Positions 17,433-42,954 of a DNA stretch of 44,528 nucleotides are shown here, piece after piece. The position numbers were made by a program, and so were the translations under genes. Source of the DNA: Candidatus Hydrogenedentota bacterium (GTDB lineage: Bacteria; UBA8481; J006); assembly GCA_003697085.1 (NCBI GenBank), contig RFFU01000078.1, positions 67,152-111,679 of the forward strand, in the 5' to 3' direction. How positions within the stretch are numbered: the stretch's first letter is position 1; the number at the start of each line of letters is the position of its first letter. The notes beneath the pieces are model-generated. The model did not search any database, was not told where the DNA came from, and saw nothing but the letters and a program-made list of their open reading frames with translations.

Positions 17433-17540
17433 CTTCATCCTCCGTTTTCGTTCACCGTTCTTCGTTTTTCGCTACGGTATATGGAACGGCAGAAATCGAG
17501 GTTCAAACGTTAAACGGTGGATGAAAAACGGTGAACGAAA
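17433..17540. repeat. Spaced inverted repeat with heptamer periodicity
   Basis: TTTCGTTCACCGTT (17446-17459) recurs inverted at 17527-17540 with 67 bases between. Around both arms the sequence moves in 7-base steps (CGTT-type heptamers on the left, AAACGGT-type on the right). No gene is seen here. Confidence 0.6.
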
Positions 17541-17589
17541 TTTCCTTTTTCCTTTTGCCTTCTGCCTTTTGACTTTTGCCTTTTTCCTT
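17541..17589. repeat. Heptamer array (TTGCCTT-type)
   Basis: Seven consecutive 7-base units close to TTKCCTT: TTTCCTT twice, then TTGCCTT, CTGCCTT, TTGACTT, TTGCCTT, TTTCCTT. The period is exact with no slipped base. It translates in some frames as Lys/Arg/Gln-rich junk and is not a gene. Confidence 0.8.
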
Positions 17590-17702
17590 TCTTTTTCCAA
17601 ATCCTTCCGCCGCCCGTGCGGCCAAGATGGCCCCGCTCCCAGACTCCCCTCTTTTTCTCCTTCTCTCCGGGCCCTTGCGCTTGGCCTTCTCCTTGCCCTC
17701 CC

Positions 17703-17811
17703 TTTTTCCGTGTCATTCGGTGTGCTCCGTGGTCCCCCTTCTTCCGTGTTGTTCCGTGTCTTCCGTGGTTCACCTCTCTTCGGCGGCCGTCCGCGTCTTC
17801 CGCGGTCTCGG
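17703..17811. repeat. 36-nt tandem repeat, three units
   Basis: Units start at 17703, 17739 and about 17775. The first two align over 36 bases with a shared core TTCCGTG...CCGTGG, and the third is degenerate and one base longer. On the minus strand the core reads ACCACGGA...ACACGGAA. This resembles the ACCACGGAGGACACGGA-type dispersed repeat common between genes of many environmental bacteria; that identification is from memory. Confidence 0.7.
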
Positions 17812-32888: not shown

Positions 32889-32919
32889 AAAAAAAGAAAG
32901 GGCCTGCTCCCGCAAGCCC
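32889..32919 (-). terminator. Rho-independent terminator
   Basis: On the minus strand GGGCTTGC and GCAGGCCC (32919-32900) form an 8-bp stem with one G-U pair and a GGGA loop, followed at once by TTTCTTTTTTT. It lies about 90 bases after the stop of the lysine-rich gene. Confidence 0.85.
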
Positions 32920-32963
32920 TCGTCTTCTCTTCCCTCCAGTTTGATACCTTTGGGAAGAATCCG

Positions 32964-32996
32964 CACGACGGATTTTCTCGACGAAAATCCGCCGTG
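32964..32996 (-). other. 14-bp stem-loop just after the lysine-rich gene
   Basis: Bases 32996-32983 pair with 32977-32964 around a 5-base loop, including one G-U pair, ten bases after the TAA stop. No U-tract follows, so it looks more like an mRNA 3'-end protector or a regulatory stem than a terminator. Confidence 0.65.
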
Positions 32997-33006
32997 TCAT
33001 TCCGAA

Positions 33007-33147
33007 TTACCGACGCCTCTTCTTCGAGGTCTTCTTCTTGGCCGTCTTCTTTTTGGCGGTCTTCTTCTTGGCCGTCTTCTTTTTGGCGGTCTTCTTCTTG
33101 GCCGTCTTCTTCTTCGCCGCCTTCTTGGCCGTCTTCTTCTTCGCCAT
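33007..33147 (-). CDS. 46-residue lysine-rich histone H1-like peptide
   Basis: The peptide starts MAKKKTAKK, repeats the unit KKKTA through its length and ends SKKRRR. It is built only of Lys, Ala, Thr and Arg apart from Met and one Ser. The coding DNA shows a 30-base tandem unit with synonymous changes (ACG/ACC, AAG/AAA) that spare the amino acids, which argues for real coding. Such tails occur in bacterial H1-like proteins (HctB, AlgP) and bind DNA or RNA through charge; here there is no other domain. ATG 33147 follows GGGGTG, and a GTG twelve bases upstream is also in frame. A stem-loop and a strong terminator follow. DNA or RNA compaction is inferred. Confidence 0.8.
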   Translation of the reverse strand: MAKKKTAKKAAKKKTAKKKTAKKKTAKKKTAKKKTAKKKTSKKRRR

Positions 33148-33354
33148 TTCGCATTTCACCCCTTTCCTTGGAAGTTTCCCATACCCCGTAGGGTCCCACG
33201 CTCTTTACTGACCAAAGCGTGGTCTATATTTTCATTCCAACCTTTCCGGGCCCTGCGATCACCTCCGGCAGGACAGTTTCTTTCCCGCTGTCCCCATCCT
33301 TCAGACTAAAGAATAATTTTTTTTTCTATGCCGACAACCTAATTTCTCTTTTTT

Positions 33355-33669
33355 CTACGCCTTTTCTTCCACAGCCTCCGTTTCACTTTCAAAAGCCTTT
33401 TTTCCCGCATCGACCGCCGACGCGAACCGATCCTTCACTTCCTCCACTTCTTGTTTGACCCGCGCCAGCCGTTCCGACGCATTTTCCCGAACCGCGCTCA
33501 CCCTGTCCACTGCGCGGTCCGCCGCTTCCTCGGCGTAAAACCGCAATCTCCGACGCATCTCCTCTCCCGAACTCGGCGCATAAAGGATACCAAACAGCGC
33601 TCCGACAACGCCTCCCAGCAGGAAAGCCAACAACGCATTCATTCCCCCGTCATCACAGCTCCGACTCAT
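33355..33669 (-). CDS. YtxH-like small membrane-anchored protein
   Basis: Protein of 104 residues with one glycine-rich membrane helix (MNALLAFLLGGVVGALFGILYAPSSG, split near 10-35), then a long charged amphipathic helix (AEEAADRAVDRVSAVRENASERLARVKQEVEEVKDRF). This is the YtxH/gas-vesicle GvpP-like layout seen in general-stress proteins. ATG 33669 is chosen because AGGAGG lies ten bases upstream; ATG 33642, directly before the helix, lacks a good site. It begins 27 bases after the DUF948-like gene, and these two probably share an mRNA. Its function is unknown. Confidence 0.82.
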   Translation of the reverse strand: MSRSCDDGGMNALLAFLLGGVVGALFGILYAPSSGEEMRRRLRFYAEEAADRAVDRVSAVRENASERLARVKQEVEEVKDRFASAVDAGKKAFESETEAVEEKA

Positions 33670-33696
33670 CTCCGTTTTGCCTCCTTCTCTCGCTCT

Positions 33697-34053
33697 CTAT
33701 GAAGATTTCTTCTTCCCAAAGAAAACATTTGCCGCCGTCCGCACCCCGCTGCCCAAACCGGCAAGCAGAACCGCAGGACGAGCGACGGCCCGATTATAGA
33801 GTTCCACCGTCTTTCCCACACTGGCGACCATTTCCTTTGTTTGGGCGGTAATGTTATCGACCCGAGCGGTTTGCACGGTCACTTGCCGGGTGATCTCCTC
33901 CACGTTCGCCGCGACTCTCCGTAACGTGGGTTCCATCTCACGGTAGGTCCGAAGCGTCGCCTCCAATTCATTTAATGTTGAACGAACCTTGAGAACCAGC
34001 GCCGCCCCCAGGATTCCGAAGACCACGACCGCCGTCCAGGCCACCGTTTCCAT
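33697..34053 (-). CDS. DUF948-like membrane-anchored coiled-coil protein
   Basis: Protein of 118 residues: an N-terminal membrane helix (VAWTAVVVFGILGAALVL), then heptad-rich sequence (LEATLRTYREMEPTLRRVAANVEEITRQVTV, broken here near 30-60), then a second weak hydrophobic stretch (RPAVLLAGLGSGV) and a KKKSS end. DUF948 proteins look like this and are often paired with YtxH genes, as here. ATG 34053 has AAGGAGAG seven bases upstream; upstream in-frame codons add only unlikely sequence. Confidence 0.8.
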   Translation of the reverse strand: METVAWTAVVVFGILGAALVLKVRSTLNELEATLRTYREMEPTLRRVAANVEEITRQVTVQTARVDNITAQTKEMVASVGKTVELYNRAVARPAVLLAGLGSGVRTAANVFFGKKKSS

Positions 34054-34336
34054 GCTTTCACTCTCCTTTTCCCTATCGGCCGCATTTACCACCGCGCCTT
34101 CATTAACCGAAACTAAACACGCAACCGCTTTTCTTGTCAACCCTCTAACAAGAACTTCTTCTTCCTTTCGTGGAAAACTTCCTTCTTTACCGACCACGCC
34201 CTTTTTGTTGTTCCTTCGTCCTTTCTCCGATTATTCTTCTGTTTAGGCAACGATCCTGTGCAGGGCGTTATCCCTTCTTCCCACCCCGCCTGGTTCGTTG
34301 GCCGACAACACAAACAACTCGGAAAAGGAGGAGACC

Positions 34337-34810
34337 ATGAACCCCGGACTCACCATCGAAGCCGTCCGGAAAGAAACAGGCATCTCGTTCCGCAATATCA
34401 AATACTGGACGGCCCTCTATGAACTTCCGTTCCAAAAAAAAGGCCGGCGGAATTACTACCCGCCGGATACGGTGGAACTCCTTCGCGCCATCGCGCTTCT
34501 CTCCCGCTTCCATGTCTTCTCCTCCCGTTATATTCGCTGGCTCATCGACCTCAAACTCGAACGTCCCCTCAAGGAAGAGTCATCCTACATCGCTTTCCTC
34601 GCCGAGGAACCGTTTCTCGTTTCACTCTTCGGTATCCACGCGCCCCGTTCCCCGTCAACCACGGTACCCCAGCACTCTTCTTCTTCCTCTTCCTCCTTCT
34701 CACCCTCCTTCTCCGCGAAGGGGGATCACGTTCACAACAACCCCTCCGATTCCTCCTTTCCTACCGCTTTTTCACGTACCGTATCCCCCGACGATGACGT
34801 TATCCTCTGA
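34337..34810 (+). CDS. MerR-like transcription regulator with Ser-rich tail
   Basis: Protein of 157 residues. LTIEAVRKETGISFRNIKYWTALYELP (split near 5-31) is a MerR-type winged helix with the usual R-x-I-x-Y-W, then RRNYYPPDTVELLRAIALL. No effector-binding domain follows; instead about 60 residues rich in Ser, Pro and Phe. ATG 34337 follows AAAGGAGGAG at ideal spacing, so the longer reading from 34298 is rejected. It is divergent from the DUF948/YtxH pair and may control them; that is inferred from position only. Confidence 0.85.
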   Translation: MNPGLTIEAVRKETGISFRNIKYWTALYELPFQKKGRRNYYPPDTVELLRAIALLSRFHVFSSRYIRWLIDLKLERPLKEESSYIAFLAEEPFLVSLFGIHAPRSPSTTVPQHSSSSSSSFSPSFSAKGDHVHNNPSDSSFPTAFSRTVSPDDDVIL

Positions 34811-42803: not shown

Positions 42804-42954
42804 CCCGCGCTTCCAGGAATGCGCGCTTCGGGCAGTAACCCTCGGGCAAGGTCCTGCGCTCCCAGAAATACACGCTTCGGGCAATAAACCTCGGGCACGG
42901 TCCTGTACTCCCAGGAAGCCTTCCTTACCGGAATCTTTCTCTGCCCATAATCTG
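42804..42954 (+). repeat. Dispersed repeat element, right copy, with 49-bp tandem units
   Basis: It begins CCCGCGCTTCCAGG (42804, 13/14 like the left copy) and ends CCCAGGAAG (42910-42918) ... GCCCATAATCTG (42943-42954). Inside are two clean 49-base units (42807-42855 and 42856-42904), sharing GCGCTYCCAG at their start and CTCGGGCAMGGTCCT at their end, and a partial third from 42905. No gene is seen in the whole gap 42677-43043. Confidence 0.75.

Follow-up and report, generated by a model that had tools for sequence, protein, structure and literature searches.

A probable lysine-repeat micro-gene and its surroundings

The window, that is the whole stretch of 44,528 nucleotides analysed here, very probably contains on its minus strand a real gene of only 46 codons. 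The explanation we prefer, which to us seems somewhat better than evenly likely, is that it is a translated micro-gene encoding a disordered polycation, equivalent to a detached H1-type tail without folded domain and putatively binding nucleic acid. Good support for genuine coding comes from the syntenic position in another family, where a lysine-repeat ORF is likewise present, and from the variation found at third codon positions.

The ORF (33007..33147, minus strand) runs from an ATG at 33147-33145 to a TAA at 33009-33007 and its full sequence is MAKKKTAKKAAKKKTAKKKTAKKKTAKKKTAKKKTAKKKTSKKRRR. The peptide begins with MAKKKTAKKAA, continues with five KKKTA units and one KKKTS, and ends with KKRRR, giving a composition of K25 A9 T7 R3 S1 M1; judged by the pentamer criterion used for HC2-type proteins, it holds seven consecutive basic pentamers KKKT(A/S). 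At the DNA level the array is a tandem repeat with periods of 15 and 30 (score 191, Tandem Repeats Finder). Other tandem repeats of the window lie at 42807-42914 (unit of 49 bp, 2.2 copies) and at 17512-17781, where short repeats with units of 7, 10, 14 and 36 bp are clustered. The ORF listing also offers an in-frame GTG at 33159, which would extend the peptide to 50 aa, but we favour the ATG at 33147 because GGAAAGGGGTGAAATGCGAA, which directly precedes it, sets a GGGG 11 nt upstream, by inspection a putative ribosome site.

Downstream of the stop codon, on the same strand, there are a perfect 14-bp stem-loop (32964..32996), after which no long T run follows, an additional predicted hairpin (32928..32958) and an intrinsic-terminator-like hairpin (32898..32921) followed by TCTTTTTTTA. 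In the window's own genome this stem-loop has a 21-nt core that is present a single time when up to 2 mismatches are allowed. The KKKTA-repeat ORF of 46 residues, a ribosome site, the 14-bp stem-loop and a terminator had all been claimed in the preliminary description, which named no strand, and all have plausible counterparts in the sequence.

Upstream lies a leader-like stretch (33142..33199, minus strand), composed of the 52 nt before the start and the first two codons, which holds the ribosome-like site and a hairpin ACCC-TACG-GGGT (33194-33183). A 9-bp hairpin, CCACGCTTT...AGAGCGTGG (33196..33222, minus strand), is found further upstream. The next genes are a YtxH-like protein (PF12732; 33355..33669, minus strand), a DUF948-like gene with a start chosen by us and a score below the Pfam cut-off (33697..34047, minus strand), and a divergent MerR-type regulator (34298..34810, plus strand). 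In the intergenic stretch no sigma-70-like site was found on the strand of the ORF, either in the window or in the related genome described below; one minus-strand match is located inside YtxH (33509-33481).

A positional counterpart in a related genome

The phylum was represented by two genomes in the grouping used (the NCBI label may be wider), the window's own and that of Candidatus Hydrogenedentes bacterium CG07_land_8_20_14_0_80_42_17 (G001), which belongs to the same order but to another family. In both, the DUF948-YtxH pair with a nearby MerR regulator is kept (33355-34810 in the window, L022:2802-4582 in G001), with identities of 48% for YtxH, 37% for the DUF948-like protein (L022:3879-4259) and 54% over 78 aa for MerR (L022:2805-3194, minus strand), and a formyltransferase-like gene near the locus is 41% identical. 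G001 has an additional ORF of 186 aa between MerR and DUF948.

Behind DUF948-YtxH, in the same place in both phylum genomes examined, a lysine-repeat ORF is present. The one in G001 has 27 codons (L022:4718-4801, plus strand), begins 135 nt past YtxH with GTG GCA GCG AAA AAG AAG, and encodes after its start the peptide AAKKKATKKATKKATKKATKKATKKR, that is AAKKK(ATKK)5R. The repeat unit is therefore different, 15 bp coding for KKKTA in the window versus 12 bp coding for KKAT in G001, while the frame, the K/A/T/R composition, the start region and the downstream terminator are kept; the terminator-like hairpin begins 83-86 nt past the stop in both genomes. Beyond the terminator tail the 3' stretches show a slight likeness, the best local match being CCTTTCTTTTTT with a score reached by 9 of 1000 shuffles. 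As evidence against a gene the preliminary description had named a frame broken in relatives in which the DNA repeat persists. G001 displays the opposite: its unit measures 12 bp instead of 15, so the DNA repeat is what differs, and frame and protein character are retained.

With E values up to 100 allowed, BLASTP did not align the two peptides, a common outcome for low-complexity sequence, and the kinship of the peptides is consequently argued from synteny and character. Two independent origins at one place might also account for the arrangement. In the family models the G001 peptide had a sole sub-threshold match, to an unrelated family.

The association with YtxH

The strongest of the competing explanations accepts the peptide as real and assigns it a partner other than the nucleoid, namely ribosomes or RNA, polyphosphate, or the acidic C-terminus of the neighbouring YtxH; we judge it to have perhaps one chance in four. 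It gains from the polycation adjoining a YtxH gene in both genomes and, as far as polyphosphate is concerned, from the reported association of AlgP with polyphosphate granules (PMC9239181). For YtxH itself, the last 20 residues include 6 acidic and 3 basic ones in G001 as well as in the window (the latter counted by eye), whereas 11 of the tails of 15 other homologues are more basic than acidic. Against this partner, three of those 15 tails are also net acidic (L032, L036, L037) and one is even (L039), yet no lysine-repeat gene is adjacent to them.

More generally, none of the 15 other YtxH loci (from Nitrospira, Deltaproteobacteria, Chloroflexi and others) has a lysine-repeat ORF, the sequence available behind the match being only ~0.26 kb in L037 and ~0.54 kb in L033. 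Short K-rich ORFs devoid of repeats were observed near YtxH at L030, L033 and L034. Wide co-travel of YtxH and lysine-repeat genes is thus unsupported, and in the loci examined the pairing is confined to this phylum. The literature search returned no text pairing YtxH with DUF948, and its KKKTA matches were unrelated by title.

Distribution of the motif

We searched for the motif in several ways. The start-anchored pattern ATGGCNAARAARAARACNGCNAAR occurred in one of 386 genomes, the own one, an exact pattern of this kind missing variants such as the ORF of G001. The 15-base unit pattern was found at 14 places in the own genome, 6 of them within the lysine-repeat ORF, against 5 for a reversed control pattern. 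A search with the peptide itself gave matches at E up to 1 in 5 of 41 genomes (the own one, G001, G024, G029 and G034), and the syntenic ORF of G001 was missed; the match in that genome is on another contig, has an internal stop and differs from the syntenic ORF. The match in G024 is a KETGR-type frame, the plus-strand matches L002 and L004 are not lysine-repeat proteins, and L006 overlaps L005.

The two remaining genomes are more informative. G029 has an ORF of 65 aa (L003:1402-1599, minus strand; start chosen by us within a frame of 83 aa) in a locus of 71% GC, where inspection reveals GGAGGG upstream of the start and, past the end of the ORF, a GC-rich hairpin followed by a T run. G034 has an ORF of 329 aa (L005:754-1743, minus strand), with a long part rich in KKKTA/KKKSTKK and a strongly acidic C-terminal part. 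As read from their sequences, these lysine-rich ORFs count against the uniqueness of the window peptide.

In viral contigs, three exact KKKTA units in a row were found in 19 stretches. In 16 of these the run is located within an ORF of 107-252 aa, 11 being one protein of 228 aa (one copy cut); of the other three, L060 (66 aa) consists largely of repeat, L072 is truncated where the stretch ends, and for L073 (162 aa) the start is doubtful. Since most of the viral runs lie inside longer proteins, the motif is a poor guide to function, and together with G029 and G034 they suggest that it arises easily, with stand-alone forms being rarer but not unique. A tblastn search of plasmids gave no match, a weak negative because of low-complexity filtering, and solved structures were matched only by stretches of the sigma factors HrdB/SigA, at E 0.16 or worse.

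Coding evidence

To judge how readily such ORFs arise by chance, we counted those of 25-80 aa in which K makes up at least 40% of the residues and the set KRATSMV at least 90%. One was found in the window and one in the 10-kb locus of G001, and none in 60 shuffles of the window or in 200 of the G001 locus. Another 369,626 bases from other loci contained a single one, the tail of a longer ORF, on a contig that had been chosen for its KKKTA run.

Synonymous third-base changes between the units had been put forward in the preliminary description. They are present, but their weight is moderate when taken by themselves: the six perfect KKKTA units vary at two sites, both at codon position 3 (P 0.095), and adding the seventh unit (KKKTS) gives three of four varying sites at the third position (P 0.077). 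The evidence from the window alone is weak because an exact 30-bp duplication copies the alternation of AAG/AAA and ACG/ACC. The five KKAT units of G001 have four varying sites, all of them third positions (P 0.002), and pooling both genomes places 7 of 8 variable sites at codon position 3, with P ~3e-4 for randomly placed sites taken as independent, which in repeats they strictly are not. Third codon positions have a GC content of 0.93 in the ORF of the window and of 0.48 in that of G001, compared with an overall GC of 0.57 for the window and 0.38 for the G001 locus.

These data also bear on the possibility that a longer protein, H1-like or other, left the ORF behind as its tail, or that the ORF is a tandem repeat with incidental coding, in either case functionless now. 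The viral runs, so often embedded in longer ORFs, and the 30-bp duplication, which amounts to repeat expansion, would fit such an origin. We nevertheless regard it as improbable, at roughly one chance in nine, for a ribosome-like site, a stop and a terminator flank the lysine-repeat ORF in both genomes in spite of the different units, and the repeat units show the third-position bias just described.

The leader and RNA structure

Between the window and G001, the 52-nt leader with the first two codons is identical in 38 of 60 alignment columns. When the intergenic stretches alone were compared, the match stopped shortly upstream of the start codon in both genomes, and its local score (29) was equalled by 8 of 2000 shuffled pairs and none of 416 other pieces of the G001 locus; the likeness is modest and based on two sequences. 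Both leaders can form a hairpin (A/G)CCC-TA(C/A)G-GGG(T/C), noted by inspection, which keeps its closing pair although the two genomes differ there by a single exchange (A-U versus G-C), and the 9-bp hairpin further upstream has no aligned counterpart in G001. A stretch of 381 nt folds better than 100 of 100 shuffles (z -2.9). The fold results disagree on the ribosome-like site: the GGGG is paired at 57-97% in the window and at 28-80% in G001, and folding of shorter stretches leaves it unpaired in the minimum-energy structure of the window and partly paired in that of G001.

A first leader model (R1) matched its source loci strongly (the window and a single contig represented by both L022 and L024), and its five matches elsewhere among 18 sources were weak (E 0.91 or worse). 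A second model built from both genomes (R2), searched to E 0.1 with filters that lose some weak matches, picked out 11 of 116 genomes; the own genome and G001 scored E ~1e-18, and no lysine-repeat ORF is found behind any of the 10 places in the other nine genomes (E 0.0014 or weaker). Searched to E 10, the own genome yields no further R2 copy, and 114 others contain none that is credible.

That a structured RNA, made of the leader and the 3' hairpins, is the functional product and the ORF secondary is the least probable explanation, with hardly more than one chance in twenty, since the likeness of the leaders and the folding of the 381-nt stretch speak for it, but the variation within the ORF is of the coding type, Rfam 15 has no match at gathering in the whole window, and its matches at E up to 10 in either locus are far below gathering scores.

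Proposed role of the peptide

Returning to the translated polycation, binding of DNA or RNA by the 46-aa peptide is the most likely activity by analogy, and a role in compacting the nucleoid or RNA is plausible from its composition and from the published H1-like proteins. A polycation without folded domain would work by charge, binding DNA and/or RNA electrostatically, and might in this way help to compact or protect the nucleoid or ribonucleoprotein, perhaps under stress. Recombination within the repeat could alter the length of the peptide and leave the frame intact, because each repeat step is a multiple of three. The folded stretch directly upstream of the ribosome site may tune translation, although this is a guess. 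A more specific version, in which the H1-like tail forms an entire gene of 27-46 codons for a minimal chromatin peptide peculiar to this lineage, and a folded leader RNA of an undescribed type controls translation, possibly through binding of the peptide to that leader, appears to us unlikely, at about one chance in seven.

The locus suggests that, in a bacterial phylum sampled only sparsely, an H1-type basic tail can form a gene by itself. A gene of this size may be dropped by annotation filters for length or low complexity, and the presence of two repeat designs at one locus offers a natural test of whether selection keeps charge and not sequence. The importance of the case would grow if the leader were a regulator or if the peptide were abundant.

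Comparison with known H1-like systems

No model in Pfam (E up to 0.01), NCBIfam (E up to 1) or PHROG matches the 46-aa peptide. Specifically, it fails the HC2 profiles (PF07382, NF038052), contains no HU domain (PF00216, Pfam) and does not have the layout of AlgP, an N-terminal domain followed by a KPAA tail, the peptide having 46 aa in total and no proline. In the two genomes, for which assembly completeness is ~95% (own) and ~86% (G001), the PF07382 cut-off was never passed, the only weak match being in G001 and elsewhere than the locus.

In HU of the mycobacterial type, a lysine-rich C-terminal extension with basic KKA-type repeats is part of one chain, whereas in the window the lysine repeat stands alone. 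Each genome has two HU-family proteins, encoded on other contigs, and none of them possesses a lysine-repeat tail; therefore a separate tail peptide could supply what the tail provides in mycobacterial HU. The 65-aa ORF of G029 resembles the window ORF as a short stand-alone K/A/T-rich frame with a GGAGGG site, hairpin and T run, but differs in its irregular repeats and its end rich in A/P/S; its match to HC2 is weak (E 0.0055, 17.3 bits, cut-off 40).

Among characterized proteins, chlamydial Hc2 (HctB), Bordetella BpH1 and their Burkholderia relatives share with the window peptide the lysine-rich pentamer repeats; Hc2 and BpH1 are H1-like, have been reported to bind DNA, measure 165-237 and 182-206 aa respectively, and carry two basic residues per pentamer, and the length of Hc2-type proteins varies through in-frame gain and loss of repeats (PMC2848022). 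The window peptide differs from them in its 46 aa, in having three K in each pentamer and in its failure to match the HC2 models, and its G001 counterpart is made of KKAT tetramers. The C-terminal KPAA domains of AlgP and PhaF are likewise low-complexity basic repeats resembling the H1 tail, and AlgP is H1-like with reported DNA binding (PMC9239181), but they are proline-rich tails on a larger protein, whereas the window peptide is free of proline and of any other domain. By its predicted sequence, the window peptide belongs with the H1-like lysine-repeat proteins already known, as a variant that is short and has no domain.
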